Positions 13,912 through 60,525 of a stretch of 64,000 bases of DNA are shown piece by piece. The notes beneath the pieces are model-generated. The model ran no database searches, had not been told where the DNA came from, and saw only the letters and a list, made by a program, of their open reading frames with translations. Each line of letters opens with the position of its first letter. The stretch's first letter is position 1. The stretch is from Streptomyces sp. NBC_01244. Lineage in GTDB: Bacteria; Actinomycetota; Actinomycetes; Streptomycetales; Streptomycetaceae. The DNA lies in NCBI RefSeq assembly GCF_035987325.1, contig NZ_CP108488.1, positions 4,154,001 to 4,218,000 on the forward strand, given 5' to 3'. Both the position numbers and the translations under genes were made by a program.

Positions 13912-13926
13912 CTGATGCGACGTCAG
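13912..13926. promoter_or_regulatory. CTGACG-N3-CGTCAG operator-like palindrome, site A (one mismatch)
   Basis: The sequence is CTGATGCGACGTCAG, with a single mismatch to the perfect sites elsewhere in the window. It sits 15 bp upstream of the barrel-protein ATG (minus strand). A TetR-like operator is inferred. Confidence 0.6.
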
Positions 13927-14037
13927 ATGGGGAGCCCCTGGGGGGCGTTCAGTGGGACGTTCAGCATCCGATACATAGGTGCCGTCTACACCTTCCCGCC
14001 GCTACGATGCGCGCACCCGCCTCCCGAAGGAGCTCCC

Positions 14038-15288
14038 GTGCCCGCCCTCGTGCCCGCTCCAGCGCCCGCCTCCACACCCGCAGCCGCAGCCGCAGCCGCG
14101 TCCGGCGGCGTGCTCGCCCCCGCTCCGCCGCCGCCCTTCGCCGCCCGGATCCGTACGACCGCCCCCTCCGCCGTGCGCGAGATCCTCGCCGTCACCGCGC
14201 AGCCCGGCATGATCTCCTTCGCCGGCGGCCTGCCCGCGCCCGAACTCTTCGACACCGAGGGCCTGCGGGCCGCGTACGACTCCGCCTTCGCGCGGTCCGC
14301 CCGCCGCGCCCTCCAGTACTCGACCACCGAGGGCGCCCCGGAACTGCGCGCGGCCGTGGCGGCCCGGATCGACCGGCGGGGACTGGCGACCACCGGGGAC
14401 GACCTGCTGATCACCACCGGATCGCAGCAGGGGCTCGGCCTGATCACGACCGCGCTGATCGAGCCCGGCGACGCGGTGCTCGTCGAGAACCCCACCTACC
14501 TGGCCGCCCTCCAGGGATTCGCGCTCGCCGGCGCCCGCGTCATCCCCGTGCCGTGCGACGACGAGGGCATCCTCCCGGACGCGCTGGCCGAGATCGTGGC
14601 CCGCGAACGCCCCAAACTCCTCTACACGATCCCCACCTTCCAGAACCCGACCGGCCGCACCCTGCCCGCCGCCCGCCGCGCGGAGATCGCATCGCTCGCG
14701 GCCCGGCTCGGACTGTGGCTGCTGGAGGACGACCCGTACGGGGACCTGCGCTACGAGGGCCACAGCGTCCCCTGGCTGGCCGCGCACCCGGGGGCCGAGG
14801 ACCGCACCGCGCTGCTCGGCAGCTTCTCGAAGGTGATGGCCCCCGGGCTCCGGCTCGGCTGGCTGCGCGCCCCGGCCGCGCTGCTGCGCGGGGCGGTGCT
14901 CGCGAAGCAGGCGGCGGACCTGCACACCTCGACGGTGGACCAGCTGGCGGCGGCGGAGTACCTGCGGACGGCGGACCTGGACGCGCACGTGGCCCGGGTC
15001 CGGAGCGCCTACCGAGTACGGCGCGACGCGCTCCTGTCGGGCCTGGCCGCCGCGCTCCCGGCGGGCTCCACGTGGAACCGCCCGGAGGGCGGCATGTTCG
15101 TCTGGGCCCGCCTCCCCGAGGGTCACGACGCGACGGCCCTGCTCCGCGCGGCGACCTCCCGAGGGGTCGCCTTCGTCCCCGGGGCCCCCTTCTACGCCCG
15201 GTCCCCGGACCCCCGGACCCTGCGGCTGTCGTTCACGACGCACACGGCGGACGAGATCACGGAGGGCCTCCACCGCCTGGCCGCGTAG
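14038..15288 (+). CDS. PLP-dependent aminotransferase, fold type I
   Basis: A 416-residue protein. After an Ala/Pro-rich N terminus (residues about 1-30) comes the class I/II aminotransferase domain: MISFAGGLPAPELFD, TTGSQQGLGLI (cofactor-phosphate loop), IPTFQNPTGRTL (substrate and PLP contacts) and the Schiff-base lysine in LLGSFSKVMAPGLRLGW. This pattern is that of the 2-aminoadipate or multifunctional aminotransferase subgroup, related to the enzyme domain of MocR. The GTG at 14038 has GAAGGAG upstream. The longer in-frame start at 13915 overlaps the operator-like site and has no ribosome site. No HTH domain is attached, so it should be an enzyme. The amino donor is unknown. Confidence 0.85.
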   Translation: MPALVPAPAPASTPAAAAAAASGGVLAPAPPPPFAARIRTTAPSAVREILAVTAQPGMISFAGGLPAPELFDTEGLRAAYDSAFARSARRALQYSTTEGAPELRAAVAARIDRRGLATTGDDLLITTGSQQGLGLITTALIEPGDAVLVENPTYLAALQGFALAGARVIPVPCDDEGILPDALAEIVARERPKLLYTIPTFQNPTGRTLPAARRAEIASLAARLGLWLLEDDPYGDLRYEGHSVPWLAAHPGAEDRTALLGSFSKVMAPGLRLGWLRAPAALLRGAVLAKQAADLHTSTVDQLAAAEYLRTADLDAHVARVRSAYRVRRDALLSGLAAALPAGSTWNRPEGGMFVWARLPEGHDATALLRAATSRGVAFVPGAPFYARSPDPRTLRLSFTTHTADEITEGLHRLAA

Positions 15289-15357
15289 CCGCGTCGCCGC
15301 GTCGCCGACTGGCCGCGTAGCCGCGTGGCCGCCTGGCCGCCTGGCCGCCTGGCCGCC
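15275..15357 (+). repeat. Short tandem repeats (GGCCGC[CG]T units) at the aminotransferase 3' end
   Basis: Degenerate 8-9 bp units such as GCCGCGT and GGCCGCCT are repeated from the last codons of the aminotransferase past its TAG stop. The stop codon itself lies in a repeat unit. Confidence 0.75.
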
Positions 15358-15417
15358 CCTGCGGGGCCGTCCCCGACCCGCCCTTCCTCCGTTCCCCGGG
15401 CGCTGCCCCGAGCCCGG

Positions 15418-15738
15418 TCCTCAAGCGCCGGACGGGCTGAGGAGGGGATGCCGGGCTGCGCCCAGACCCCCCTGGGGCTCCGCCCGCAACCCCGCGCCTC
15501 AAGCGCCGGACGGGCTGGGAGGGGGATGCCGGGCTGCGCCCGGACCCCCTGGGGCTCCGCCCCAGACCCCGCCCCTCAAACGCCGGAGGGGCTGGATTTC
15601 CCAGCCCCGGCACTCAAGTGCAGGCCGACGCCGGCCATCTCCAGCCCCGCCGGCGTTTGAGGCGCCGCCGGAGGCAAATACAGCCCCTCCGGCGTTTGAG
15701 GAGCGGGGGTCCGGGGGCCGGCCCCCGGCAGCGGCGCC
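15418..15738. repeat. Cluster of five dispersed GC-rich palindromic repeats
   Basis: The gene-free stretch 15289-15837 is filled by repeats. A core of the form CTCAA[AG]CGCCGGA[CG]GGGCTG occurs near 15418, 15498 and 15575. It recurs in reverse orientation near 15641 and 15681. The last copy extends into a 58-bp block (15681-15738) that is identical to 38955-39012 and nearly identical, inverted, to 20723-20780. I see no coding sequence here, only repeats and, at the right end, operator site B. Confidence 0.85.
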
Positions 15739-15794
15739 ACACGCACCCACGGCGGGGTCCCCGCCCCTTCCCTCCCCGCGCCCCGCGCCGTAGC

Positions 15795-15809
15795 CTGACG
15801 ACCCGTCAG
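15795..15809. promoter_or_regulatory. CTGACG-N3-CGTCAG operator-like palindrome, site B (perfect)
   Basis: CTGACGACCCGTCAG, 28 bp upstream of the SDR ATG. The arms are identical to sites C, E and F. Confidence 0.7.
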
Positions 15810-15837
15810 ATCCGCTGGGCCGTCGGGAGGCCGCACC

Positions 15838-16629
15838 ATGTCGCCGCTACTACTGCAAGGCAAGACCGTCATCGTCTCCGGCGTGGGCGCCGGCCTCGGC
15901 CACCAGGTCGCCGCCACCGTCGTCCGCGACGGCGGCAACGCCGTGCTCGGGGCGCGGACCGAGGCCAACCTCGCCAAGGCCGCCGCCGAGATCGACCCCG
16001 ACGGCACGCACACCGCGTACCTGCCGACCGACATCTCCGACGAGCGCCAGTGCGAGGCCCTCGCCGCCCTCGCCGAGGAGCGGTTCGGCGGGGTCGACGC
16101 CGTCGTGCACGTCGCCGCCTGGGACTCGTACTTCGGGGGCCTGGAGGACGCCGACTTCGGCACCTGGCAGCAGATCCTCGACGTCAACCTGCTCGGCACC
16201 CTGCGCATGACCCGCGCCTGCCTGCCCGCGCTGAAGCGCACCGGCGGCTCCGTCGTCATCATCGGCACCCAGTCCGCCATCGCCTCCCCCAACGAGGTGC
16301 AGCAGGCCGCCTACGCCGCCTCCAAGGGCGCGCTGACCTCCGCCATGTACTCCATGGCCCGCGAGCTCGGCCCGCACCGCATCCGCGTGAACACCGTGCT
16401 CCCCGGCTGGATGTGGGGTCCCCCGGTGCAGGCCTTCGTCACCTTCACCGCGCACACCGAAGGCGTGCCGGAGGCCGAGGTGCACGCACGGCTCACCGAC
16501 CGCATGGCGCTGCCGGACCTGGCCACCGACGGGGACGTCGCCGACGCCGCCGCCTTCCTCGCCTCCGACCGGGCACGGGCGATAACCGGCCAGTCTCTGC
16601 TGGTCAACGCCGGGGAGCTGATGCGATGA
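15838..16629 (+). CDS. Short-chain dehydrogenase/reductase
   Basis: A 263-residue classical SDR. The nucleotide-binding motif is GVGAGLG (residues about 15-21) and the catalytic motif is YAASKG with an upstream Ser in GTQSAIA. The C terminus has the family ending [12 protein letters not shown]. It should oxidise or reduce a hydroxyl/carbonyl using NAD(P). The ATG at 15838 follows GGGAGG. A perfect operator-like palindrome lies 28 bp upstream. The gene is followed after 40 bp by fbiC, but its operator ties it to the distant oxidoreductase loci rather than to F420 synthesis. The substrate is unknown. Confidence 0.88.
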
Positions 16630-16669
16630 GCCCCTCCGTGCGCGCGCGAGCGGATCGTATGCTCGGGCC

Positions 16670-19267: not shown

Positions 19268-19283
19268 CGGGTGTGGTGAACGC

Positions 19284-19323: not shown

Positions 19324-19346
19324 GTCGAGGTTCGCCCTGTGGCTGA

Positions 19347-35639: not shown

Positions 35640-37136
35640 TCAAGCCCAGACGATCGACTGCATCTCGCTGTAGGCGTGCAGTGCGTACGAGCCCACGTCC
35701 CGGCCGACCCCCGAGCGCTTGAAGCCGCCGAACGGCGCCTCCATGTTCCGCCCGATGGTGTTCACCCCGACCCCGCCCGCCCGCAGCCGCCGCGCCACGC
35801 GGAAAGCGCGGGCCGCGTCCGCGGACCACACGTAACTGATCAGGCCGAAGTCGCTGTCGTTGGCCAGCGCCACCGCCTCGTCCTCATCCCCGGCAGCTCC
35901 GTCGAACGGGACGACCACGACGACCGGCCCGAAGATCTCCTCCCGGACCACGCGCATGTCGTTCGTGCAGTCGACGAGGAGGGTCGGGGCCACGTAGAAC
36001 CCCTTGCCCGCGGCGGCACCCTCACCCACCATCGGGCGCTCGCCGCCGAAGGCGATCCGGGCGCCCTCCTTCTTGCCCAGCTCGATGTACGACTCCACGC
36101 GGTCCCGGTGCGCCGCCGAGATGACCGGGCCCACCACGGTGCCGCGCACCGCCGGGTCTCCGACCTTCATGAAGGCCAGATAGCCCTGCAGCTTCTCCAC
36201 CAGCTGCTCGTACACCGACCGGTGGACGATCACCCGGGTCGGAGCCGTGCAGATCTGCCCGGAGTAGAAGGAGAAGGTGGTGCCGATCCCCATCACCGCC
36301 GCGTCCAGGTCGGCGTCCGCGAGGACGATCGCCGCGCCCTTGCCGCCCAGCTCCATCAGCTGCCGCTTCATCGTGCGGCCGCAGACCTCGGCGATGCGCT
36401 GCCCGACGCCCGTGGAGCCGGTGAAGGACACCATGTCCACGTCCGGGGAATCCACGGCCGCCTCGCCGACCTCCACCGAGGTGCCGGAGACCACGTTCAC
36501 CACGCCCGCCGGGACCCCGGCCTCGTGCAGGGCCTCGGCCATCCGGAACACCGACAGCGGGTCCTGCGGGGCCGGCTTGACCACCACGGTGTTGCCCATG
36601 GCCAGCGCCGGGGCCACCTTGCCCGCGGGATTGGCCCACGGGTTGTTGTACGAGGTGATGCAGGTGACGACCCCGACCGGCTGGCGCACCTCCAGGGCGC
36701 CGAGGATGCTCGCCGCACCCATCGGCCCGGCCTCGGTGACCTGCGGCGGCAGCCCGCGCTCGACCGGTTCCAGCGCGCCCTTCGCGTACCGACGGAAGCG
36801 GGCCACGCCCACCCCGACCTGCATGCCGCGCGCGATCCCGGTGGGGGCGCCCGTCTCGGCCTGCGCGAGCGCCGCCCAGGGCTCGTACTCGCGCTGGATG
36901 ATGTCCGCGGCCCGGTCCAGGATCGCGGCCCGCTCCTCCGGCTTCGTCCGGGACCAGCCCTCGAAGGCCGCCGCCGCGGCGCGCGCCGCGTCCTCGACCT
37001 GGCCGCGCGAGGCCTCGGGGGCCAGGCCGACGACGGATTCGTCGGCCGGGTTGACCACCTCGTAGTGCCCGCCCGCCGGCTCGACCCACTCGCCGCCGAC
37101 GAAGAGCTTCTGCGGGTTGTCCGTAGCACTGCTCAC
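35640..37136 (-). CDS. Aldehyde dehydrogenase (NAD(P)+)
   Basis: A 498-residue protein of the classical ALDH superfamily. Catalytic Cys is in YSGQICTAPTR, general-base Glu in LMELGGKGAAIV, the cofactor loop in FTGSTGVGQRIA, and Asn in ITSYNNPWANP. It oxidises an aldehyde to an acid. The GTG at 37136 overlaps the TGA of the upstream deacylase gene (GTGA), so they are co-translated. It is last in the minus-strand cluster 42136-35640. Confidence 0.92.
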   Translation of the reverse strand: MSSATDNPQKLFVGGEWVEPAGGHYEVVNPADESVVGLAPEASRGQVEDAARAAAAAFEGWSRTKPEERAAILDRAADIIQREYEPWAALAQAETGAPTGIARGMQVGVGVARFRRYAKGALEPVERGLPPQVTEAGPMGAASILGALEVRQPVGVVTCITSYNNPWANPAGKVAPALAMGNTVVVKPAPQDPLSVFRMAEALHEAGVPAGVVNVVSGTSVEVGEAAVDSPDVDMVSFTGSTGVGQRIAEVCGRTMKRQLMELGGKGAAIVLADADLDAAVMGIGTTFSFYSGQICTAPTRVIVHRSVYEQLVEKLQGYLAFMKVGDPAVRGTVVGPVISAAHRDRVESYIELGKKEGARIAFGGERPMVGEGAAAGKGFYVAPTLLVDCTNDMRVVREEIFGPVVVVVPFDGAAGDEDEAVALANDSDFGLISYVWSADAARAFRVARRLRAGGVGVNTIGRNMEAPFGGFKRSGVGRDVGSYALHAYSEMQSIVWA

Positions 37137-38872
37137 CTGGTGCTCACCGTCCTCGTGTCCCGGCCCGAACGGAGCACGATCCCCGGGATCGCGCCCGTCA
37201 CCTCGTCGTCGCGGATGGTCTCCACGCCGTTGACGCGTACGGACACCATGCCGATCGCCCGCGCGTCCAGCCGCGGGCTGTCCCCGGGCAGGTCGTGCAC
37301 GAGCGTGGCCGGTCCCGCCTCGATCCGCTCCGGGTCGAAGAGCACCAGGTCCGCGTGGAAGCCCTCGGTGATCCGGCCGCGCTCGCGCAGCCCGAACAGC
37401 TGGGCCGGGTCGTCGGTGAGCATCCGTACCGCCTGCTCCAGCGGCACCAGCTTGCGGCCGCGCAGGCAGTCCCCGAGGAACCGGGTGGTGTACGGGGCTC
37501 CGCACATGCGGTCCAGGTGCGCGCCGGCGTCGGAGCCGCCGAGCATGACGTCCTCGTGCTGCCAGGTCTCGGCGCGCAGCGCCCAGCTCGCCGGGTCGTT
37601 GTCGGTCGGCATGGGCCAGAGCACCGTACGCAGGTCGTCGTTGGCGCAGATCTCCACCAGGCACTGGAAGGCGTCCTGGCCGCGCTCGGCCGCGATGTCG
37701 TTGACGACGCGGCCCGACAGGCCCTCGTTCGCCTCGCTGTAGGTGTCGCCGATGACGTAGCGCCCGAAGTTGGCCAGGCGCCGGAAGACCCCGGCCTCCT
37801 TGCTGGCCGCGCGGACCAGCATCTCGGCGCGCACGTCGGCGTCGCGGAGCTTCTCGATGCGCTCGGGGACGGGCAGGCCCAGGATCTCCCCCCAGCCGGG
37901 GATGAGGTTGAGGGCGCAGAAGGTGCCCAGCGACATGTTCATGGGGGTCAGGATCGGCATCGTCAGCGCGACGATGCGGCCGCCGGCCTTGCGGGCGCGC
38001 TCGCTGGGGATCAGCTGGCGCGGCACGCGCTCGGGGACGGAGGCGTCGATCGTGAGCACGTTCCAGTTCAGGGGCCGTCCCGCGGCCGCGCTCATCTCGA
38101 CGAAGAGGTCGATCTCCTCGTCGGCGAACTGGTCGAGGCAGCCCGCGACGATCGCTTCGAGCTGGGTGCCCTCGTGCTCGGAGACCGCCCGGGAGAGCGC
38201 GAGGAGTTCCTCGGGCGCCGCGTGCCGGGAGGCGACGGGGGCGCCGGAGCCGTCGGAGTGGGTGGAGGACTGGGTGGTCGACAGGCCCCAGGCACCGGCG
38301 TTCATGGCGTCGTGGAACAGGTCGAGCATCTCCTGCATCTGCTCTTCGGTGGGTTGGCCGCCGACGGCGTCCTCGCCCATGACGTGCCGGCGCAGCGCGC
38401 AGTGGCCGACCATGAACCCGGCGTTGACGGCGATCCGGCCGTCGAGCGCGTCGAGGTACTCGCCGAAGGTGGACCAGGTCCAGTCGACGCCCTCTTCGAG
38501 GGCCTTGAGCGCCATGCCCTCGACCTTGCTCATCATGCGGCGGGTGTAGTCGGCGTCCTCGGGGCGGGCGGGGTTGAGGGGGGCCAGGGTGAATCCGCAG
38601 TTGCCGCCCGCGACGGTGGTCACTCCGTGGTTCATGGAGGGGGTCGCGTACGGGTCCCAGAAGAGCTGGGCGTCGTAGTGCGTGTGGGGGTCTACGAACC
38701 CGGGGGTCAGGACGAGGCCGGTCGCGTCCTCGCTGCTCGCCGCGGGTTCGGTGACGGTTCCCGGCGGGGCGATGACGGCGATGCGGCCGTCGCGTATCCC
38801 CACGTCGGCCACGCGGGCCGGGGCGCCGGTCCCGTCCACGACGGTGGCGCCCTTGATCAAGTGGTCGAGCAT
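37133..38872 (-). CDS. N-acyl-D-amino-acid deacylase/D-aminoacylase-like amidohydrolase
   Basis: A 579-residue metal-dependent hydrolase. The signature PGFVDPHTHYDAQLFWDP holds the first metal histidines, followed by GNCGFTLAP. LGGSDAGAHLDRMCG holds the late metal Asp, and RGRITEGFHADLVLFDP is the end of the beta-sandwich. Members cleave N-acyl-D-amino acids or cyclic amides. The ATG at 38872 follows GAGAGGA. The longer open frame upstream is repeat DNA. It is coupled to the ALDH gene and lies 272 bp downstream of the LLM gene. Confidence 0.88.
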   Translation of the reverse strand: MLDHLIKGATVVDGTGAPARVADVGIRDGRIAVIAPPGTVTEPAASSEDATGLVLTPGFVDPHTHYDAQLFWDPYATPSMNHGVTTVAGGNCGFTLAPLNPARPEDADYTRRMMSKVEGMALKALEEGVDWTWSTFGEYLDALDGRIAVNAGFMVGHCALRRHVMGEDAVGGQPTEEQMQEMLDLFHDAMNAGAWGLSTTQSSTHSDGSGAPVASRHAAPEELLALSRAVSEHEGTQLEAIVAGCLDQFADEEIDLFVEMSAAAGRPLNWNVLTIDASVPERVPRQLIPSERARKAGGRIVALTMPILTPMNMSLGTFCALNLIPGWGEILGLPVPERIEKLRDADVRAEMLVRAASKEAGVFRRLANFGRYVIGDTYSEANEGLSGRVVNDIAAERGQDAFQCLVEICANDDLRTVLWPMPTDNDPASWALRAETWQHEDVMLGGSDAGAHLDRMCGAPYTTRFLGDCLRGRKLVPLEQAVRMLTDDPAQLFGLRERGRITEGFHADLVLFDPERIEAGPATLVHDLPGDSPRLDARAIGMVSVRVNGVETIRDDEVTGAIPGIVLRSGRDTRTVSTR

Positions 38873-38954
38873 GACGTCCTCTCCGACAGTGTTCACGTTG
38901 CGCGCCGTCTCCGGACCGTTGGCGGTCACGTGCGGGCTGACGCCGATCAAAATC

Positions 38955-39144: not shown

Positions 39145-40266
39145 TCAGACGGCCTCGCGGAAGCGGGTGGTGCGGTGCACCGGGTCGGTGTCGATGTGCG
39201 GGATGACGTGCTCGCCGATGAGCTTGATGGTGGTCATCGTGTCCTCGGGCGAGACCCCGGTCGGCAGACCGAAGGAGAGCTGGTCGGCGCCGGCCTCCTC
39301 CCAGCGCTTGCACTGCGCGCGGACCTCGGACGGGTCGCCGCAGATGAGCAGCTCCTCGGCGATCAGCAGCTCGATGATCTCCGCGTTGTACTCGGGGAGG
39401 ATCTCGGGCCACTCGGGGATCATCTCGGGGCGCGGGAAGGTGTCGTGGTAGCGGAAGACCAGCGACTGGAAGCGGTTCATGTTGGCGTTGACGGCGATCT
39501 CGACGGCCTTGTCGTGGGTCTCGGCGCAGATCGCGGTCGAGGTGACCATGACGTTGTCGTTGACGAAGGCGCCGATGGCCTTCGCCTCCTGGATCGCGGT
39601 CTTGTACTGCTCCAGCACCCAGGCCATGTCGGAGACCTTCTGGACGCTGAAGCCGAGGACTCCGAGGCCCTTCTTGGCGGCCATGGCGTACGAGGAGGGG
39701 GAGCCGGCGGCGTACCACATGGCCGGGTGGGCCTTGCCGTACGGCTTGGGGAAGATCTTGCGCGGCGGGAGCGACCAGTGCTTGCCCTGGAACCCCTCGT
39801 ACTCCTCCTGGAGGAACATCTTGGGGAACTCGGCGATGGTCTCTTCCCAGATCTCCTTGGTGCCGTTCATGTCCTCGATGCCGGGAAGGAAGCCGAGGAT
39901 CTCGTGGCTGCCGGCGCCGCGGCCGGTGCCGAACTCGAAGCGCCCCTTGGAGAGGTGGTCGAGCATGGCGACCTTCTCGGCCACCTTGACCGGGTGGTTG
40001 ACCGGGGCGAGCGGGTTGAAGATGCCGGAGCCGAGGTGGATGCGCTCGGTGGCGTGAGCGAGGTACCCGAGGAACACCTCGTTCGCCGACAGGTGCGAGT
40101 ACTCCTCCAGGAAGTGGTGCTCGGAGGCCCAGGCGTACTTGAACCCGGACTTGTCCGCCTGGATGACGTACTCGGTCTCCTCGATCAGCGCCTTGTGCTC
40201 TGCCTCGGGGTCGACCTTGGACCGTGCCTCAGGCACGTATCCCTGCACAAAGAGCCCGAATTCCAA
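39145..40266 (-). CDS. LLM-class flavin-dependent oxidoreductase (luciferase-like monooxygenase)
   Basis: A 373-residue luciferase-like TIM barrel. MEFGLFVQGYVPEARSKV opens the barrel, and WASEHHFLEEYSHLSAN, HLGSGIFNPLAPVNHP and GTGRGAGSHE are conserved landmarks. The E-H-H-F motif is typical of FMN-type LLM monooxygenases and suggests FMNH2 rather than F420. The start codon is TTG at 40266, with GAAGGA upstream. A perfect operator-like palindrome lies 23 bp upstream and a second, imperfect one lies further back. The substrate is unknown. Confidence 0.85.
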   Translation of the reverse strand: MEFGLFVQGYVPEARSKVDPEAEHKALIEETEYVIQADKSGFKYAWASEHHFLEEYSHLSANEVFLGYLAHATERIHLGSGIFNPLAPVNHPVKVAEKVAMLDHLSKGRFEFGTGRGAGSHEILGFLPGIEDMNGTKEIWEETIAEFPKMFLQEEYEGFQGKHWSLPPRKIFPKPYGKAHPAMWYAAGSPSSYAMAAKKGLGVLGFSVQKVSDMAWVLEQYKTAIQEAKAIGAFVNDNVMVTSTAICAETHDKAVEIAVNANMNRFQSLVFRYHDTFPRPEMIPEWPEILPEYNAEIIELLIAEELLICGDPSEVRAQCKRWEEAGADQLSFGLPTGVSPEDTMTTIKLIGEHVIPHIDTDPVHRTTRFREAV

Positions 40267-40289: not shown

Positions 40290-40304
40290 CTGACGTTGCG
40301 TCAG
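40290..40304. promoter_or_regulatory. CTGACG-N3-CGTCAG operator-like palindrome, site C (perfect)
   Basis: CTGACGTTGCGTCAG, 23 bp upstream of the LLM gene starting at 40266. One more base pairs on each side (T...A). Confidence 0.7.
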
Positions 40305-40350: not shown

Positions 40351-40365
40351 CTGACGCTCCATCAG
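40351..40365. promoter_or_regulatory. CTGACG-N3-CGTCAG operator-like palindrome, site D (one mismatch)
   Basis: CTGACGCTCCATCAG, 61 bp from site C, in the same 127-bp gap between the SDR stop and the LLM start. A minus-strand TTGACG -35-like sequence lies between the two sites, so they may bracket a promoter. Confidence 0.55.
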
Positions 40366-40393: not shown

Positions 40394-41179
40394 CTAGAGG
40401 ATGCTGACGCCCGCCATCCAGCCGCCGTCGATCACGAACGGCTGGCCGGTGATGTACGAGGAGTCCTCGCTGGTCAGGAACAGCGCCAGCTTGGCTATCT
40501 CCTCGGGCTGCCCCACCCTGCCCATCGGCACCACGCGCTTGTAGAGCTCCGCCATGGCGTCCCGTGCCTCCTGGGGCAGGTCCGCCGGATTGGTGTTCCC
40601 TGGGGTGGCCATCGCGGTGTCCACGGCCCCCGGGCACATCGCGTTGACCCTGATGTTCTTCGCGGCCAGCTCCAGCGCGGCCACCCGGGTCAGGCCGAGG
40701 ATCGCCGCCTTGGTCGCCGCATACGTGCCCACGTACGCCATGCCCGTCAGGCCCGTGTACGAGGAGGTGTTGACGATCGTGCCGCCACCGGCGGCCTCGA
40801 TCTCCGGAGCCACCGACTTGATGCCGAGGAAGGCGCCGACCTGGTTGACCTGGACCACCTGCTGGAACTCCTCCAGCGGGGTCGCGGTCAGCTCGTTGAA
40901 GCGCAGGATGCCCGCGTTGTTGACCAGCCCGTTCACCGGGCCGAAGGCCTCCTTCGCCGCCGCGATGGCCGAGGCCCAGTCCTCTTCGCGGCTCACGTCC
41001 ATCCGTACGTACCGGGCCCGGTCCTCGCCGATCTCCTTCGCGACCGCCGTGCCCTGCTCGTCCAGTACGTCGCCCAGGAGCACCTTGGCACCCTCCGAGG
41101 CGAAGAGCCGGGCCTCCTGCTCGCCCTGGCCGCGCGCGGCACCCGTGATGATGACGACGCGTCCGTCCAGCTTGCCCAT
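40394..41179 (-). CDS. Short-chain dehydrogenase/reductase, hydroxysteroid-dehydrogenase-like
   Basis: A 261-residue classical SDR. TGAARGQGEQEARLF is the cofactor loop, NNAGIL follows beta-4, the catalytic Ser lies in NTSSYTG and the Y-x-x-x-K is in YAATKAA. ITGQPFVIDGGWMAG ends the protein. R-G-Q-G-E-x-E and the overall pattern resemble 3alpha/20beta-hydroxysteroid dehydrogenases. The ATG at 41179 follows AGGGG, which overlaps the upstream LLM stop by a few bases, so the two genes are one transcript. Confidence 0.9.
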   Translation of the reverse strand: MGKLDGRVVIITGAARGQGEQEARLFASEGAKVLLGDVLDEQGTAVAKEIGEDRARYVRMDVSREEDWASAIAAAKEAFGPVNGLVNNAGILRFNELTATPLEEFQQVVQVNQVGAFLGIKSVAPEIEAAGGGTIVNTSSYTGLTGMAYVGTYAATKAAILGLTRVAALELAAKNIRVNAMCPGAVDTAMATPGNTNPADLPQEARDAMAELYKRVVPMGRVGQPEEIAKLALFLTSEDSSYITGQPFVIDGGWMAGVSIL

Positions 41180-41188
41180 GCCGTACCC

Positions 41189-42136
41189 CTAATCGTTGAG
41201 GAGCGGGCCCACTTCGGACCCGAAAGCCGTGATCTGGTCGATGAGTTCGGCCCGGTCGCGATTGCGGAAGCGGACCTGGATCTGATCGATGCCGATCGCC
41301 TTGTACGCGCGCAGCGACTCGGCGAGCGCCTCCGCCTTGCCGGTGAGGGTCCGCCGGCCGGTCTCCCAGCCGGGCTCGCCGACGTACAGCGGCGCGGTGA
41401 TCGCGCCGAACTCGACGGGTCCGGTGACCCCGGCCTCGGCGCGGAGCTCCTTGATCCGGGCAATCTGCGCCGGGAGCTTGTCGAGCGGGTCGCCCTGCGG
41501 GAGCCAGCCGTCGCCGCGCACGGCGGCCCGGCGGACGGCGGCGGGCGAGGAACCGCCCACCCAGACGGGGATCCGGGCCTGGACGGGGCGGGGCAGCTGC
41601 CCGAGGTCCTTGAAGGAGAACAGCTCCCCCTCGAACTCCGGGTACTCCTCGGGGCCGAGGGCGGCGCGCAGCGCGTCGAGGGTCTCGTCGAGGACGGCTC
41701 CGCGGCGCGCGAAGTCCACGCCGAGCACCTCGAACTCCTCCTTCACGTGCCCGGCGCCGACGCCGAGGATCAGCCGGCCGCCGGAGAGGTGGTCGACGGT
41801 TGCGTACTGCTTGGCGCTGAGCAGCGGGTGGCGCAGGCCGAGGATCGCGACGTGGCTCAGCAGCCGCACGTTCTCGGTGATCCCGGCCAGGAAGGAGAGG
41901 GTGGCCACCGGGTCGTACCAGATGGTGCTCATGGGGCCGGCCATGTGCCGCGGGATGGCCACGTGGTCACAGGTGGCGACGTAGCCGAAGCCGGCCCGGT
42001 CGGCCGCCCGCGCGACCGCGGCGAGGTCGGCCGCGCCGGCCGTCGCCTCCCAGGGCTCGGCGTAGATGGTGCTCTGCGACTGGATCGGGAGCTGCATCCC
42101 GTAGACCAGCCGACCTTCCGGAAACACGCGCGCCAT
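41189..42136 (-). CDS. LLM-class F420-dependent oxidoreductase (TIGR03619-like)
   Basis: A 315-residue luciferase-like TIM barrel. GFGYVATCDHVAIPRHM, LLSHVAILGLRHPLLSAKQY, DHLSGGRLILGVGAGHV and VGGSSPAAVRRA are typical of F420-dependent members. I chose the ATG at 42136 (MARVFPEGRLVYG) because the barrel starts soon after. An in-frame ATG at 42175 is an alternative and would sit 25 bp from operator site E. First gene of the minus-strand cluster. It likely uses F420 made through fbiC. Confidence 0.85.
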   Translation of the reverse strand: MARVFPEGRLVYGMQLPIQSQSTIYAEPWEATAGAADLAAVARAADRAGFGYVATCDHVAIPRHMAGPMSTIWYDPVATLSFLAGITENVRLLSHVAILGLRHPLLSAKQYATVDHLSGGRLILGVGAGHVKEEFEVLGVDFARRGAVLDETLDALRAALGPEEYPEFEGELFSFKDLGQLPRPVQARIPVWVGGSSPAAVRRAAVRGDGWLPQGDPLDKLPAQIARIKELRAEAGVTGPVEFGAITAPLYVGEPGWETGRRTLTGKAEALAESLRAYKAIGIDQIQVRFRNRDRAELIDQITAFGSEVGPLLND

Positions 42137-42200: not shown

Positions 42201-42215
42201 CTGACGGTCCGTCAG
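42201..42215. promoter_or_regulatory. CTGACG-N3-CGTCAG operator-like palindrome, site E (perfect)
   Basis: CTGACGGTCCGTCAG, upstream of the first gene of the 35.6-42.2 kb cluster (25 bp from the in-frame ATG at 42175, 64 bp from 42136). Confidence 0.7.
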
Positions 42216-42385: not shown

Positions 42386-43627
42386 TCAGAAGACGCGGAC
42401 CCGGTCGGCCGTGTCCCAGAGCATGCTGCCCTCGGGGCCGCGCAGGCTGCCCTTCCCGGTGCCCGGGTACACGAAGGCCTGCCAGCCGATGGGGCGCAGC
42501 AGGTCGCTGATGCCGTCGGCGGTGGAGTCGCCGGTGGCCACGATCGGGGAGTCCGACGGCCAGGCGTACGGCAGCTGCTTGCGCGCGCCGAAAGCGCCCG
42601 CGCCGTTGCCCGGGTAGAGCCACAGGCGCCGCGAGCCGTCCCGGGCCACGAGGTCGGCCCGGCCGTCGCCGGACAGGTCGCCCGGCGAGACGAGCTGGTT
42701 CATGGTGTTCCAGCCGCCGCCCAGGTTCTTGCGCGTGCCGAACCAGCCCTTGCCGTTGCCCGGGTACGACCACAGCGTGCCGGCCGTGTCGCGGGCGAGC
42801 AGGTCGCCGCGCCCGTCGCCGGTCAGGTCGCCGGCCGCGCTGATCTCGCGCATGGCGTTCCAGCCGCCGCCCAGGCTCATCCGATTGCCGAAGGAACCGG
42901 TGCCGAGGCCCGGGTAGAACCACAGGACACCGCCCTTGTCGCGGGCGAAGATGTCCTCCTTGCCGTCGGAGTTGTAGTCGCCGTGGCGGACGAGCTGGGT
43001 CATGGCGTTCCAGCCGCCGCCGAGGAACTTGCCCTGCGTACGGCCCTCGGCGTCCCGCTTTCCGGGCAGGAACCACAGGCGGCCGTCGTCGGCACGCTCC
43101 AGCAGGTCGGCGATGCGGTCGTTGTTGAGGTCGGCGAAGTTCGCGACGGCCGGAACCGGCGCGGGCCGCGGCAGGTCGGGCCACGCCGTCCAGTCCATGT
43201 ACGGGACGCCCTGGATGGCCTCGTACGAGGTGGTGGCGATCCGGATGGAGCTGATCGCGTTGTCGAACCGGCCCATGATCGAGCCGTCGAGGTCGTTGGG
43301 GCCGTTGTACGGGGTGACGTAGAGGTAGTCGCCCGAGAAGTTCGCGTCCGGGTACACGGTCGCGTACAGGCCGCTGTTGTTGACCAGCGAGGAGATCTTG
43401 TTGTTCCAGGTGCCGAGCGAGGCCTGGGGGGTCGAGAAGGTCTTCATCTCGCCCGTGTAGTCGTCGCCGGCGAAGACGCAGAACTTGCCCGCAGGGCAGC
43501 GCTCGGAGTTGTCGGCCGCGGCGGCGGTGGGCGCGGTGGTGAGCAGGGCCGCCACCGAGGCGGCCGTGGTGACGGCCGCGCCGAGGGCGCGGCGCAGGGA
43601 ACGGGATCGGGAACCGGGTCGGGTCAT
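42386..43627 (-). CDS. Secreted protein: peptidase-inhibitor I36 domain plus FG-GAP/VCBS repeats (paralogue 1)
   Basis: A 413-residue exported protein. The signal peptide ends near TAPTAAAA. Residues about 40-140 are a small Cys-containing domain (CPAGKFCVFAGDDYTGEMKT) typical of the I36 inhibitor or gamma-crystallin-like family. Residues about 165-413 are FG-GAP/VCBS beta-propeller repeats of the form GDLTGDGRGDLLARDTAGTL, with Ca-binding D-x-D/N-x-D-G motifs. A tandem paralogue follows at 43756. The function may be protease inhibition or surface binding. Confidence 0.88.
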   Translation of the reverse strand: MTRPGSRSRSLRRALGAAVTTAASVAALLTTAPTAAAADNSERCPAGKFCVFAGDDYTGEMKTFSTPQASLGTWNNKISSLVNNSGLYATVYPDANFSGDYLYVTPYNGPNDLDGSIMGRFDNAISSIRIATTSYEAIQGVPYMDWTAWPDLPRPAPVPAVANFADLNNDRIADLLERADDGRLWFLPGKRDAEGRTQGKFLGGGWNAMTQLVRHGDYNSDGKEDIFARDKGGVLWFYPGLGTGSFGNRMSLGGGWNAMREISAAGDLTGDGRGDLLARDTAGTLWSYPGNGKGWFGTRKNLGGGWNTMNQLVSPGDLSGDGRADLVARDGSRRLWLYPGNGAGAFGARKQLPYAWPSDSPIVATGDSTADGISDLLRPIGWQAFVYPGTGKGSLRGPEGSMLWDTADRVRVF

Positions 43628-43755
43628 GGGGAAGGCGGTCCGTTCTGAACTGAAGTCCGGAGTACGAAGACTGAAGGGGGTGCCGATAACCGGGCGGCCG
43701 GGCCGTGGCCCGGAAGGAACCGGGCCGCTGCCCGAGCCGCTTCCGGGCCGCGGGC

Positions 43756-44985
43756 TCAGAACACGAGGTGCGCGTCCGAGGCGTTGCCGATGACCTTGGC
43801 GCGGCCGAGGTGGCCGTCCTTCGCACCCGTCCCGGGGTACAGGAGCAGGTAGTTGTCGGCGTGCGAGTGCGCGAGGAGGTCGGGTCGCCCGTCGCCGTTG
43901 TAGTCGCCGACGCCCGCCAGCTCCTTGAAGCCGTTCCAGCCGCCGGTGCCGATCAGGCTGCGCGTACCGAAGCCGCCGCGGCCGTTGCCCGGGTAGAACC
44001 AGAGCCGCCCGGAGGTGTCACGGGCCACCAGGTCGCAGACGCGGTCGGAGTTCATGTCGCCGGCGCCGACGAGTTCGTTCATCACGCCCCAGCCGCCGCC
44101 GAGGTTCTTGCGCGCGCCGAACGAGCCCTTGCCGTTGCCGGGGTACATCCACAGCGTGCCGGCCGTGTCGCGGGCGAGCAGGTCGCGCTTGCCGTCACCG
44201 GTGAGGTCGCCGGCCGCGGCGAGGTCCCGCATCCCGTTCCAGCCGCCACCGAGCCCGGTGCGCGTACCGAGGGCCGAGCCGGTGCCCGGGTAGAACCACA
44301 GGACGCCGTCCTTGTCGCGGGCGAAGACGTCTTCCTTGCCGTCCGCGTTGTAGTCGCCGTGGCGGACGAGCTGGGTCATCCCGTTCCAGCCGGTGCCGAT
44401 GCGGTGGGTCTTGTTGTTCTCGTTCGCGTTCACGGCCCACAGCGCGCCGTACCGGGTGCGGCCGACCAGGTCGGTGCGGCCGTCGCCGTCGAGGTCGCCG
44501 AAGGCCGCCTCGGCGGTCGGGGGCGCCGGACGCGTCCGCGGCTCCTCGCCGTACCACCAGGACGGGTAGGTGGAGAAGCTGCCGCAGTCCTCCGCGTCCG
44601 GCAGGAGCTGGATCGAGCTGACGGCGTCGTCGAGTTCCGGGCGCATGCTCTCGTCGAAGGACACCTGGCCGCCGTAGTAGTGCCCGGCGCCCTCCCAGCC
44701 GTAGTCGGGATCGGGGCTGACGCACACCGTGTGGTCGCTGTAGTTGGCGAGCGAGCTGATGCGGTCGTCCCAGGTGCCGAGGCGGGCCAGGCTGCTCTTG
44801 ACGATCTTCATGTCGCCGGTGCCGACGGGCCCGCTGAAGACGCAGACCTGGCCCCAGGGACAGCGGTCGTAACCGCCGGCGGCCTGGGCGGCCGAGGCGC
44901 CGCCGAGCAGGCCGGCCGTGGTGGCCAGCGCCGTGGCGGCGGCCAGGAGCGCACCGCGGACGGCGCGCGGAACGGAAAGGGTCAC
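43756..44985 (-). CDS. Secreted protein: peptidase-inhibitor I36 domain plus FG-GAP/VCBS repeats (paralogue 2)
   Basis: A 409-residue exported protein with the same layout as its neighbour at 42386. A signal peptide (ends GGASAAQA) is followed by the I36-like domain (CPWGQVCVFSGPVGTGDMKI) and then VCBS repeats (GDYNADGKEDVFARDKDGVL). The GTG at 44985 has a GGGGGGAT site. An ATG at 45024 would precede the signal peptide. The two paralogues share near-identical blocks in the repeat region, for example GWNxMTQLVRHGDYN and DLLARDTAGTLW, while the I36 parts have diverged. They arose by tandem duplication. Confidence 0.88.
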   Translation of the reverse strand: MTLSVPRAVRGALLAAATALATTAGLLGGASAAQAAGGYDRCPWGQVCVFSGPVGTGDMKIVKSSLARLGTWDDRISSLANYSDHTVCVSPDPDYGWEGAGHYYGGQVSFDESMRPELDDAVSSIQLLPDAEDCGSFSTYPSWWYGEEPRTRPAPPTAEAAFGDLDGDGRTDLVGRTRYGALWAVNANENNKTHRIGTGWNGMTQLVRHGDYNADGKEDVFARDKDGVLWFYPGTGSALGTRTGLGGGWNGMRDLAAAGDLTGDGKRDLLARDTAGTLWMYPGNGKGSFGARKNLGGGWGVMNELVGAGDMNSDRVCDLVARDTSGRLWFYPGNGRGGFGTRSLIGTGGWNGFKELAGVGDYNGDGRPDLLAHSHADNYLLLYPGTGAKDGHLGRAKVIGNASDAHLVF

Positions 44986-45118
44986 AGATCCCCCCGGATG
45001 TGTGTGGAACAGCCGCGTTCGCACAGGCCCGCGGGAGCCGGCCCCCCTGGAACACGGATTCGAGTGTCAGGATCATAGCCCTGGCCCCCGAGCCGGACGC
45101 ACCGCTAGGGTGCCGCGC

Positions 45119-45778
45119 GTGGAACTGTTTCTGACCCTGGTCAGCGGGGTGGCGTGGACCCTCGTGTACGCCGAGGCGATCCGGGTGGGGCTGCGGGACC
45201 GGGCGTACGCGATGCCGGTCGCGGCGCTCGCGCTGAACTTCGCCTGGGAGTCGACCTACGCCGTCAACGACATCCGTACCGGCCTCTCGGCCCAGGGCGT
45301 CGTCAACGTGGTGTGGGCCCTCGCCGACATCGTCATCGTGTACACCTACCTGCGCTACGGGCGGGCCGAGCTGCCCGGCTTCGTGACCCGGCCGCTGTTC
45401 GCCGTCTGGACGGTGCTCCTCTTCGCGAGCGCCTTCACCGTGCAGTGGCTCTTCCTCGCCCACTTCGGCGCGCACGACGCGAGCCGGTACTCGGCGTTCC
45501 TGCAGAACCTGCTGATGTCCGGGCTGTTCATCGCCCTCTACGCGAGCCGGCGCGGCCCGCTCGGACAGTCCCTGGTCATCGCGGTCGCCAAATGGATCGG
45601 CACGCTCGCGCCGACCTTCCTCTTCGGCGTCATCGAGGACGCCCCGTTCATCCTCGGCCTGGGGCTGATGTGCGCGGTCTTCGACCTCGCGTACATCGCG
45701 CTGCTGGCCCGGAACCCGGCGGGCGGGCGGCGCGGCGTCGTGGCGGACCTCAGAAGCCCCGCGGCCCCATCACGATGA
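45119..45778 (+). CDS. Seven-helix membrane protein, candidate transmembrane-type terpene cyclase
   Basis: A 219-residue protein with about seven hydrophobic segments. ALALNFAWESTYAVNDIR has the acidic residue within an N-F-A-W-E context, and VVWALADIVIVYTYLRYG and CAVFDLAYIALL follow the order of Pyr4/PaxB-like membrane terpene cyclases, known in fungi and in Streptomyces meroterpenoid pathways. The GTG at 45119 is selected because the hydrophobic protein begins there. No prenyltransferase or epoxidase is nearby, so the assignment rests on pattern alone. The last 29 bp overlap, convergently, the end of the L,D-transpeptidase gene. Confidence 0.55.
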   Translation: MELFLTLVSGVAWTLVYAEAIRVGLRDRAYAMPVAALALNFAWESTYAVNDIRTGLSAQGVVNVVWALADIVIVYTYLRYGRAELPGFVTRPLFAVWTVLLFASAFTVQWLFLAHFGAHDASRYSAFLQNLLMSGLFIALYASRRGPLGQSLVIAVAKWIGTLAPTFLFGVIEDAPFILGLGLMCAVFDLAYIALLARNPAGGRRGVVADLRSPAAPSR

Positions 45779-52525: not shown

Positions 52526-52528
52526 GGG

Positions 52529-54545: not shown

Positions 54546-54575
54546 GCAACTCGCCACCCACGGGAGGGCATCAAC

Positions 54576-55342: not shown

Positions 55343-55451
55343 TCCGCCGGACCGGCCCCCGGCTCCGGCCCACCGCCGCCGGTCCCCGGGCCGGACCCCG
55401 CCCCGATCACACCTCTCCCGCCCCGCGCACCCCCCGTCGTACGCTGGTCTG

Positions 55452-55892: not shown

Positions 55893-55951
55893 CCGCCCGC
55901 CCGGGGAGGCCGTCGCCCGCTGCCCGTTTCCCGCTGTTCGCTGCCCGCCGC

Positions 55952-56335
55952 TCAGCGCGGCATGGCCCCGCTCATCTCCCGGGCGAGCGCGCGCAGCTCG
56001 TCCGCGACCGTGGACTCGTAGGAATTCACCGGGCTCACGGGCCAGTTCACCCGCACTCCCGCCCGTTCCGCCAGCACCAGCACGGTGGCCACGAAGCCCT
56101 CGGAGAGGGCGCGGATCACGGCATGGCCGGTGAGTCCGTGGCGGGTGATGAGGGCTTCGGCGAAGGGGCCGAGGGCGCCCGGGTTGATCTGGCACTCGTC
56201 GTTCTCCATCGGGCCGATGCCCGACGGGACGCCGAGTTCCGCCTCGAAGAGGGCCACTTGGCGGTGGAAGAGGCGGGCGGCGCCGTTCGAGGGGTTCCAG
56301 AGGGATTCCTCGCCGAGGTCGTAGTACTGGCTCAC
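55952..56335 (-). CDS. Small soluble protein, DUF6086-like
   Basis: A 127-residue protein. It starts at the GTG at 56335 (MSQYYDLGEESLWNPSNGAA), overlapping the protease stop (GTGA), and is thus coupled to it. ESLWNPSNGAARLF and SGIGPMENDECQI resemble DUF6086 members, which are often neighbours of secreted or polymorphic-toxin-type genes. A protective or chaperone role for the protease is speculation. Confidence 0.6.
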   Translation of the reverse strand: MSQYYDLGEESLWNPSNGAARLFHRQVALFEAELGVPSGIGPMENDECQINPGALGPFAEALITRHGLTGHAVIRALSEGFVATVLVLAERAGVRVNWPVSPVNSYESTVADELRALAREMSGAMPR

Positions 56336-57186: not shown

Positions 57187-57303
57187 CACAGACAACCCTC
57201 CCCCAATTTGCTCCGGCGAAGCATGCCCTGTCCGCGGCAACCCTCGCAAGCGGGACCCCGGCCCTCGGCTGTTGACACCGCTCCGGACACCCTCCACACT
57301 CTT

Positions 57304-57322
57304 CTGTATCCACTGGATACAG
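57304..57322. promoter_or_regulatory. Palindromic operator candidate upstream of the alpha/beta hydrolase
   Basis: CTGTATCCACTGGATACAG has 8-bp perfect arms with a 3-nt centre, 18 bp before the ATG at 57341. It is AT-richer than its surroundings, and the form fits a TetR-like or GntR-like operator. No regulator gene is adjacent. Confidence 0.6.
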
Positions 57323-57340
57323 TTTACGGAGGACGCAAAA

Positions 57341-58444: not shown

Positions 58445-58473
58445 CCGTCCCCAACCCGCCCCGACCCGGTCCC

Positions 58474-58890
58474 TCAGTCGGCCGTGCCGGGTGCCACGAC
58501 CCACCGCATCGGCTGGCCGGTGACCTTGGCGATCATGTCGTATTCGCCGTCGTAGTGCAGGACGGTGGCTCCGTGCCGTTCGGCGGTCGCCGCGATGATC
58601 AGATCCGGGAGGGAGAGCGCCTTCCAGTTGCCCTCCACGATCAGCAGTCTCTGCACCTCCAAGGCCCGGTCCCAGGTCTCATCGGGAGTGGGGAGCCAGT
58701 CGAAGGCGCCCATGCCTTTGCGGACCCGCTCCGCATCGGCCTTGGAGCGTGCGCTGTACATCACTTCCAGCTCCACGGCGCCGCACACGGCAAGGACTCC
58801 CGCCACGTGGAGCGGAAAGACGACCTTGTGCACGGCCGGCTTGGGGTAGCGCGCCAGAGCAGACTTGTCGATCAGAAAGCGCTCGGTCAT
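58474..58890 (-). CDS. PIN-domain ribonuclease toxin (VapC-like)
   Basis: A 138-residue PIN-domain protein. FLIDKSALARY has the first acidic residue, GAVELEVMYSAR the second, and LPDLIIAATAERHGA the third. VLHYDGEYDMIAKV completes the cluster. It should cleave RNA. Its start overlaps the stop of the antitoxin gene (ATGA), the usual order with antitoxin first. Confidence 0.9.
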   Translation of the reverse strand: MTERFLIDKSALARYPKPAVHKVVFPLHVAGVLAVCGAVELEVMYSARSKADAERVRKGMGAFDWLPTPDETWDRALEVQRLLIVEGNWKALSLPDLIIAATAERHGATVLHYDGEYDMIAKVTGQPMRWVVAPGTAD

Positions 58891-59126
58891 GCCGCCCTGT
58901 CCCTCACGTGCTCGGCCTCGGCGAACGTCTCCGCGGCCGGCTCGACCGGGCCCGTCAGGTCGGGCAGCCCGCCCTCGGCGATCCAGTTCAGGAAATCCTC
59001 CCGCTTGCGCCGGTTGACCACGTCCTGAAGGGCCGCGTTCACCGTGGCCACCTTCGTCTTCGTACCGAAGAGCTCGGCGGCCTCCGCCAGCAGGGCGTCG
59101 TCGACGTCGATCACGGTTCTGGCCAT
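58887..59126 (-). CDS. VapB-like antitoxin
   Basis: A 79-residue protein. MARTVIDVDDALLAEAAELF is the ribbon-helix-helix-type DNA-binding start, and VNRRKREDFLNWIAEGGLPD leads to the acidic toxin-binding tail. I chose the ATG at 59126. An inverted repeat lies upstream. It forms a toxin-antitoxin pair with the next gene. Confidence 0.9.
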   Translation of the reverse strand: MARTVIDVDDALLAEAAELFGTKTKVATVNAALQDVVNRRKREDFLNWIAEGGLPDLTGPVEPAAETFAEAEHVRDRAA

Positions 59127-59170
59127 CGTGAACCTCCTCAGCGAGGGGCCGGTCCGACCCCTGTCCACTT

Positions 59171-59206
59171 AAACGATATCAAGATTGACATCGAGAGATA
59201 TCGTTT
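59171..59206. promoter_or_regulatory. Inverted repeat operator of the VapBC pair
   Basis: AAACGATATC and GATATCGTTT are perfect 10-bp inverted halves, 16 bp apart, 45 bp upstream of the vapB ATG. The region is AT-rich compared with the window. Autoregulation by the VapBC complex is the usual mechanism. Confidence 0.75.
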
Positions 59207-59218
59207 CTGCAAGCAGGC

Positions 59219-59247
59219 AGCCCCGGCCGGAGACTCCGGCCGGGGCT
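59219..59247 (-). terminator. Hairpin downstream of the amidohydrolase gene
   Basis: A 13-bp perfect stem AGCCCCGGCCGGA / TCCGGCCGGGGCT with GAC loop. It lies between the amidohydrolase stop (59270) and the VapBC operator. Confidence 0.75.
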
Positions 59248-59269
59248 GTCTATTGGTGAGCTCGGGCCG

Positions 59270-60490
59270 CTACGCCCCAGGCCAGAGGCCTTCCGGGGTC
59301 AGCCCCAGGAGGTCGATCGCGTTGCCGCGGACGATGCGGTCCACCACGTCCGGGGCCAGGTGGCCCATCTGGGACTCGCCGACCTCGCGGGATTTGGGCC
59401 ACGTGGAGTCGGAGTGCGGGTAGTCCGTCTCGTAGAGGACGTTGGCGACGCCGATGGAGTCGAGGTTCTTCAGGCCGAAGGCGTCGTCGAAGAAGCAGCC
59501 GAAGACGTGTTCTGCGAAGAGCTCCGACGGCGGGCGCAGCACCTTGTCGGCGACGCCGCCCCAGCCGCGGTTCTCCTCCCAGACCACGTTCGCGCGCTCG
59601 AGGATGTACGGGATCCAGCCGATCTGGCCCTCCGCGTACATGATCTTGAGGTTCGGGAAGCGCTCGAACTTTCCGCTCATCAGCCAGTCCACCATCGAGA
59701 AGCAGCAGTTGGCGAAGGTGATGGTGGAGCCGACGGCCGGCGGGGCGTCCGCCGAGGTGGAGGGCATGCGCGAGGAGGAGCCGATGTGCATGGCGATGAC
59801 CGTGCCGGTCTCGTTGCACGCCTCCAGGAAGGGGTCCCACTCGTCCGTGTGGATGGAGGGGAGCCCGAGGTGGGGCGGGATCTCGGAGAAGGCGACCGCA
59901 CGGACGCCGCGGGCCGCGTTGCGGCGGACTTCGGCGGCGGCCAGGCGCGCGTCCCAGAGCGGGACGAGGGTGAGCGGGATGAGGCGGCCTCGCGCATCCG
60001 GGCCGCACCACTCCTCCACCATCCAGTCGTTGTACGCGCGCACGCCGAGCAGGCCGAGCTCGCGGTCCTTGGCCTCGGTGAAGGTCTGGCCGCAAAAGCG
60101 CGGGAAGGTCGGGAAGCAGAGGGCGGACTGGACGTGGTTGACGTCCATGTCGGCGAGCCGGTCGGGAACCGAGAAGGAGCCCGGGCGCATCTGCTCGTAC
60201 GTGATGACTTCGAGCTTGATCTCGTCGCGGTCGTAGCCGACGGCCGTGTCGAGTCGGGTGAGGGGTCGGTGCAGGTCCTCGTACACCCACCAGTCGCCTA
60301 TCGGTCCGTCGTCGCCCTTGGCCCCCATCACGGGGGCGAACTTGCCTCCGAGGAAGGTCATTTCCTTCAGGGGGGCACGGACGACGCGGGGGCCGACGTC
60401 GTGGTACTTGGACGGGAGCCGGTCCCGCCAGACGTTGGGGGGCTCAACCGTGTGGTCGTCCACCGAGATGATCTTCGGGAAGGTCTCCAT
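59270..60490 (-). CDS. Amidohydrolase-2 family (TIM-barrel) hydrolase or decarboxylase
   Basis: A 406-residue protein of the metal-dependent amidohydrolase_2 type. IISVDDHTVEPPNVW carries the early D-x-H metal motif. Later GTVIAMHIGSSSRMP holds the His and LYETDYPHSDSTWP the acidic and His pair near the end. Relatives include ACMSD-type decarboxylases and hydrolases of aromatic or terpenoid breakdown. The ATG at 60490 lies 20 bp from a perfect CTGACG-N3-CGTCAG palindrome, linking it to the distant cluster at 35.6-42.2 kb. Confidence 0.85.
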   Translation of the reverse strand: METFPKIISVDDHTVEPPNVWRDRLPSKYHDVGPRVVRAPLKEMTFLGGKFAPVMGAKGDDGPIGDWWVYEDLHRPLTRLDTAVGYDRDEIKLEVITYEQMRPGSFSVPDRLADMDVNHVQSALCFPTFPRFCGQTFTEAKDRELGLLGVRAYNDWMVEEWCGPDARGRLIPLTLVPLWDARLAAAEVRRNAARGVRAVAFSEIPPHLGLPSIHTDEWDPFLEACNETGTVIAMHIGSSSRMPSTSADAPPAVGSTITFANCCFSMVDWLMSGKFERFPNLKIMYAEGQIGWIPYILERANVVWEENRGWGGVADKVLRPPSELFAEHVFGCFFDDAFGLKNLDSIGVANVLYETDYPHSDSTWPKSREVGESQMGHLAPDVVDRIVRGNAIDLLGLTPEGLWPGA

Positions 60491-60510
60491 GCCCTCACGG
60501 TAGCGTCAAT

Positions 60511-60525
60511 CTGACGAACCGTCAG
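60511..60525. promoter_or_regulatory. CTGACG-N3-CGTCAG operator-like palindrome, site F (perfect)
   Basis: CTGACGAACCGTCAG, 20 bp upstream of the amidohydrolase ATG. Confidence 0.7.

Follow-up and report, generated by a model that had tools for sequence, protein, structure and literature searches.

A palindrome scattered over a Streptomyces genome is predicted to be the operator of a conserved TetR_C_38 repressor of catabolic genes

We analysed a stretch of 64,000 nucleotides from Streptomyces sp. NBC_01244 (contig NZ_CP108488.1, positions 4,154,001 to 4,218,000; hereafter the window), in which a 15-bp palindrome, CTGACG-N3-CGTCAG, recurs ahead of genes for oxidoreductases and amidohydrolases. 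A preliminary description of the window had listed four perfect copies (15795, 40290, 42201, 60511) and two with one mismatch (13912, 40351), and all six were found at these positions. Features beyond the window are given on the same scale as window-equivalent coordinates, and genomes, loci and families carry G, L and f numbers. The first copy on the forward strand (13912..13926, one mismatch, CTGATGCGACGTCAG) lies 14 bp before the start of a reverse-strand gene (13052..13897) for a 281-amino-acid protein without a Pfam match, which has site-bearing relatives in G014 and G038. The second (15795..15809, perfect, forward strand) is found 28 bp before the start of a short-chain dehydrogenase/reductase (SDR) gene (15838..16629, forward strand), a predicted target with site-bearing relatives in G014, G038, G064, G086 and G159.

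Two forward-strand copies lie ahead of a gene for a luciferase-like monooxygenase-type (LLM) oxidoreductase (39145..40248, reverse strand), another predicted target. The perfect copy at 40290..40304 is 41 bp before the called start, and a second one with one mismatch (40351..40365, CTGACGCTCCATCAG) is 61 bp from the first and 102 bp before the start. Aldehyde dehydrogenase and Amidohydro_3 genes (35640..38950) follow downstream on the same strand and probably form an operon with the LLM gene. A second probable target operon on the reverse strand (40394..42136) comprises an F420-type LLM oxidoreductase gene (41189-42136) and an SDR gene (40394-41179); its perfect copy (42201..42215, forward strand) is 64 bp before the called start and 25 bp before an alternative start. 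The last perfect copy (60511..60525, forward strand) lies 20 bp before the start of an Amidohydro_2 gene (59270..60490, reverse strand) with site-bearing relatives in G014, G064, G086 and G159. The same copy is also 140 bp ahead of the called start of the divergent gene for an AfsR-like regulator with BTAD, NB-ARC and TPR domains (60666..63866, forward strand), which we take to be afsR from its domain make-up and neighbours. Because of this proximity, the regulator that reads the palindrome could also touch antibiotic control.

Perfect copies had been expected to be rare at about 70% GC. Indeed, 0.009–0.016 are expected per 64 kb, and the Poisson probability of the four observed in the window is 2e-10 to 3e-9. 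The 10.0-Mb home genome holds 13 perfect copies, compared to 1.3–2.5 expected in 10 Mb from Markov models of order 1–5 and none for a reversed-pattern control; when one mismatch is allowed there are 107 copies versus 38 for the control. Copies with two mismatches were rejected as evidence, as the 11 copies found in the window with up to two mismatches are at shuffle level (mean 7.49, with 15 of 100 shuffles reaching 11). The spacing of the half-sites is strict: in about 380 kb of the home genome, in stretches picked around sites, a spacing of 3 bp occurs 13 times and spacings of 0–2 and 4–11 bp never. Aligning distinct sites from Streptomyces (n = 76) and from families f14 and f16 (n = 44) extended the palindrome to a 19-bp candidate operator, ATCTGACG-N3-CGTCAGAT, with AT flanks in which A is found at -2 in 80% of the Streptomyces and 57% of the f14/f16 sites, and T at -1 in 53% and 73%, respectively.

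The sites had been described as lying in promoter regions, and a genome-wide search for hits within 100 bp of a start codon had been proposed as a check. We defined promoter position as -30 to +100 bp before a start predicted by a simple gene caller. By this definition 12 of the 13 perfect sites of the home genome are in promoter position (binomial P ∼3e-11, promoter zones covering ∼11% (10.8%) of the bases), while the site at genome position 4047025 has no convincing target gene. The placement is looser for sites with one mismatch, where just 7 of the 13 examined out of 94 in the home genome qualify. The more specific claim that most sites lie within 15–30 bp of a start holds for half of the perfect sites (6/12); the range is 15–69 bp, and the copy at 40351 is further away still. 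We examined 81 perfect sites across seven genomes, and promoter position applies to 62 of them (home 12/13, G014 11/25, G159 14/14, G086 11/14, G064 6/7, G062 2/2 and G038 6/6), the sites fetched being 25 of 32 in G014, 7 of 14 in G064, 2 of 3 in G062 and 6 of 9 in G038. Several operators are, as judged by eye, close to -10-like elements and starts.

Some sites come in pairs, namely 40290/40351 in the window and 95942/95966, 119696/119781 and 88102/88190 in window-equivalent coordinates, which are 61, 24, 85 and 88 bp apart, respectively. Perhaps such pairs serve cooperative binding or looping, or each member belongs to one of two divergent genes.

A palindrome shortly before a start could also work at the RNA level, by folding into a hairpin of the 5′ untranslated region that serves as an attenuator or in translation control; from the sequence alone, a stem of 6 bp closing a loop of 3 bases could form. 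However, the distance to the start varies among the home perfect sites, some sites seem by eye to overlap -10-like elements and would hence not be transcribed, and the sites are tied to the presence of a DNA-binding protein, as described below. We therefore regard a hairpin as very improbable.

The genes behind the sites had been said to be of one flavour. Pfam matches back this, except that the supposed dimeric-barrel protein (13052-13897) has none. Beyond the window, sites precede genes for adenosine monophosphate (AMP)-ligases, thiolases, acyl-coenzyme A (CoA) dehydrogenases and ChsH2-type (DUF35) proteins, as well as an ATP-grasp CoA ligase, a flavin reductase, a cyclase and a second Amidohydro_2 protein; the ligase at 119826 was assigned by similarity grouping. 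The four remaining promoter sites of the home genome lie ahead of a ChsH2-type/thiolase pair, two LLM genes and an AMP-ligase gene. In several families, sites are again found ahead of genes for acyl-CoA dehydrogenases, AMP-ligases, SDRs, LLM enzymes, amidohydrolases and ChsH2-type proteins.

We compared the sequences of individual targets with those of solved structures. The thiolase at 73568 has the lipid-transfer protein of 6ok1 as its first match. For the ChsH2-type protein at 93410, 9myr comes first, followed by ChsH2 of 6ok1. Behind the second amidohydrolase, acyl-CoA dehydrogenases are encoded at 117287 and 116350; their first match is Tcur3483 and their second Tcur3481. For both Amidohydro_2 proteins, DitZ is the first match and PtmU3 the second. 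The flavin reductase scores 190 bits against the HsaB model, which is under the cut-off of 230 bits. The structures of 6ok1 (Ltp2/ChsH2), Tcur3481/3483 and DitZ presumably all belong to steroid and diterpenoid degradation. That several enzymes of the predicted regulon have them as first or second solved relatives suggests that the targets form a CoA-linked route for degrading polycyclic isoprenoids of a steroid- or diterpenoid-like kind, a likeness known here from single enzymes.

A candidate for the regulator is encoded 21.6 kb past the end of the window, on the forward strand at 85565-86212 (G000:C1:4239565-4240212). The protein matches TetR_N with 26.8 bits (cut-off 24) and TetR_C_38 (PF19352) with 245.4 bits (cut-off 23.9). 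Its structural model (predicted local distance difference test score, pLDDT, of 91) has ten helices in the all-helical TetR fold. In the recognition helix, TSPATFYQYF, nine of the ten positions do not vary across 33 of 33 proteins, those of family f15 included. The gene is two called genes away from one for a kinase with pyrroloquinoline quinone (PQQ) repeats, which is AfsK-like, and near the gene for an AfsR-like protein. In S. coelicolor, the TetR gene SCO4421 is found near afsK (SCO4423; PMC3878966), and the home regulator, whose gene likewise lies close to an AfsK-type kinase gene, is by gene order alone probably the orthologue of SCO4421. SCO4421 was found to be expressed in spore chains and reduced in a whiA mutant, and its own mutant had no phenotype; the portion of that paper considered here names no operator, regulon or substrate for it (PMC3878966).

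The distribution of the palindrome largely follows that of the TetR_C_38 family. Among 61 relatives, PF19352 is over the cut-off in 51, which carry 2–32 perfect sites, while the other 10 carry 0–2; all 37 genomes examined from the same genus have the family. In a sample of 246 genomes of the class, 34 have at least five sites and 32 of these have PF19352 over the cut-off, as do 19 of the 212 genomes with fewer than five sites (counted by eye). Both the sites and PF19352 are found in Streptomyces and in families f3, f14, f15, f16 and f20.

In some genomes, many of the perfect sites also lie close to the TetR gene. Eight of 13 are within 75 kb of it in the home genome (P 5e-12), spanning 4.1698–4.2561 Mb, that is from inside the window to 38 kb past it, and six of nine in G038 (P 7e-10), where the cluster surrounds the TetR gene at a different place on the chromosome. 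Within 110 kb of the gene there are three of the five sites on the main contig of G161 and two of four in G182. The distances were picked after the site positions were known. A random spread of hits over the genome, which had been named as the outcome that would speak against a regulon, is excluded for the home genome by this clustering and by the promoter placement.

The preliminary description had also suggested looking for a TetR gene with the site in its own promoter. Such a copy exists at seven of the 12 loci examined in families f14, f16 and f20; at home the copy has two mismatches. It is perfect and 15 bp before the TetR start at L211, has one mismatch and lies 22 bp before the start at L206 and L208, and with one mismatch covers the start region at L245-L248, where the choice of start decides whether it falls just upstream or within the first codons. 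TetR itself is a site-bearing target in four genomes of f14/f16. In Streptomyces, 133 of 134 loci (those of 156 matched that align from residue 1) have the half-site CTGACG at -8 to -3 relative to the TetR start. The 15-mer that spans the start codon (85557-85571 at home) departs from the palindrome at two positions in 80 of 80 loci. The codons after the start are conserved as well, namely ACA as second codon (134/134), GGA (133/134) and CAA (128/134). We rejected ACA as proof of an operator, since the adjoining A-ending codons GGA and CAA are kept too. A -10-like TAAGCT is found six bases before the Streptomyces ATG, which suggests a leaderless TetR transcript.

Several observations weigh against the palindrome being the operator of this protein. 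In Streptomyces the regulator's own copy has two mismatches, and ACA as the second codon may be due to leaderless translation and not to an operator. Five loci have no site in the 60 bp upstream of the TetR gene, the best copies having 5–6 mismatches at L205, L207, L209 and L210 and four at L212; at the f15 loci L240-L244 the best own-gene copy has 2–3 mismatches. The copies at L245-L248 fall within the first codons if the longer frame is right, and conserved residues could then partly explain them; together with the five of 12 loci without a copy within 60 bp, this lowered our confidence. G072 and G081 have PF19352 but no site, G106 has PF19352 and one site, and kinship confounds the co-occurrence count. 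Near the TetR gene, there are just none of three sites in G150 (110 kb) and one of 20 in G045 (75 kb). The class of the pathway is built on relatives of single enzymes, and 9 of the 25 sites examined in G014, a genome with fewer than half of them in promoter position, are inside genes only. Finally, the family f15 TetR_C_38 relative keeps the recognition helix despite scattered sites in its genomes, to which we return below.

One alternative is a real operator that is read by another regulator, with the TetR_C_38 gene merely sharing the neighbourhood. The regulators of the cluster and the genome were listed in part, TetR proteins are generally numerous in Streptomyces, and two genomes with at least five sites, G200 (10 sites, 68% complete) and G202 (5 sites, 93% complete), have no PF19352 match. 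On the other hand, the co-occurrence in 51 of 61 genomes, the operator copies at the regulator's own gene in families f14, f16 and f20, and the clustering around TetR at another chromosomal place in G038 speak against this explanation. We consider it unlikely, and the protein encoded at 85565-86212 is, on the comparative evidence, very probably the regulator of the palindrome.

The five f15 genomes G063, G085, G103, G119 and G135 (4.3–5.5 Mb; loci L213-L244 and L306-L325) carry 109–218 perfect copies each, compared to 0–1 for the reversed control. Of 51 sites examined in G063, five are in promoter position, 25 are inside called genes and 21 are neither; the 51 comprise two sets with 0 of 14 and 5 of 37 in promoter position. 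These numbers, together with 25 aligned f15 sites that are without AT flanks, led us to reject a super-regulon for G063, on which the placement in f15 rests, as the other four genomes were seen in small stretches only. The 135 copies of G063 are spaced nearly as in a Poisson process, the densest 250 kb being at 3.27–3.51 Mb (20 sites, P 0.0012). A role linked to origin or terminus was rejected, as dnaA is at 1.788 Mb and the dense stretch is neither there nor opposite. The f15 distribution thus comes close to a random spread, unlike that of the home genome, and the f15 copies do not look like promoter operators. If the palindrome were in general such an iterated sequence without promoter function, the genic sites of G014 would also be accommodated. 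Against this, nearly all sites examined in the home genome, G159 and G038 and most of those in G086 are in promoter position, and the f15 sites differ in their missing flanks, so we give this explanation very little weight.

Taken together, we consider it likely that CTGACG-N3-CGTCAG is the operator of a conserved PF19352 TetR repressor over a catabolic regulon. An uncharacterised catabolic route under a TetR-like regulator encoded outside the window had been proposed from the palindrome, and the PF19352 gene, the co-occurrence, the own-gene copies and the CoA-linked targets all argue for it. From the computed sites and their placement, the target families that recur, and the way in which the number and location of sites track the TetR family, we infer binding and repression rather than activation, as well as the kind of inducer and substrate. 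The recognition helix of the TetR protein is nearly invariant, and as a dimer the protein would bind the palindrome in the promoter or start region of its targets. Because several operators are close to -10-like elements and starts, the bound protein would be expected to block RNA polymerase and so repress transcription, and by binding its own start region it would regulate itself. Binding of an inducer would release it from the DNA, and this inducer is probably an acid or a CoA thioester of the controlled pathway.

A TetR-controlled catabolic regulon is a well-known kind of system. The closest parallel is the KstR regulon of mycobacteria, in which one highly conserved TetR repressor controls a large, scattered set of lipid and sterol catabolic genes; in the part of the KstR study considered here, 83 genes are predicted in the regulon of M. 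smegmatis and the motif overlaps the putative -10 in the repressor's own promoter (PMC1995591). The core of the KstR palindrome is TnnAACnnGTTnnA (PMC1995591), however, and differs from the one described here, and the regulator is a PF19352 protein for which a sequence search of the PDB returned 11 matches, none of them named KstR. By analogy, the regulon may work in a KstR-like manner, with one repressor, dispersed promoters and CoA-linked catabolic genes.

EthR of M. tuberculosis leads the 11 PDB matches (residues ∼15–92) and has the closest fold, with a template modelling (TM) score of up to 0.79 at ∼20% identity. This likeness concerns fold and sequence. EthR is known for its control of ethA, while the regulon predicted here is dispersed. 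We found no report of the operator or the regulon in open-licence PMC papers, of which the broad topics were surveyed in part, and both the operator and its targets appear new. Among these papers, SCO4421 is named in one.

Between the sites of the window there are further genes. Two adjacent proteins with the same architecture (Inhibitor_I36 and FG-GAP repeats) are encoded at 42386-44985. The gene at 45110-45778 encodes a member of a Pyr4-like family of transmembrane terpene cyclases (PF25129, 81 bits). To our knowledge this family is unusual in bacteria. Near 45110-45778 we found no copy of the operator, even with two mismatches allowed.

The palindrome would give a DNA address to a regulator of no known role whose family was seen in every genome examined from the genus. 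Should the assignment to SCO4421 be correct, a mutant lacking the gene (K319) has already been made, as stated in the part of PMC3878966 considered here. The target list points to new candidate enzymes for molecules of a steroid- or terpene-like kind, along with a possible link to afsR. In a broader and tentative view, which we hold possible but somewhat doubtful, Streptomyces would have a core catabolism of polycyclic isoprenoids (steroid-, diterpenoid- or hopanoid-like, perhaps their own) under a spore-expressed repressor of the SCO4421 family, arranged around afsR-afsS-afsK and perhaps linked to antibiotic control, while in f15 the palindrome would have been multiplied for another purpose.

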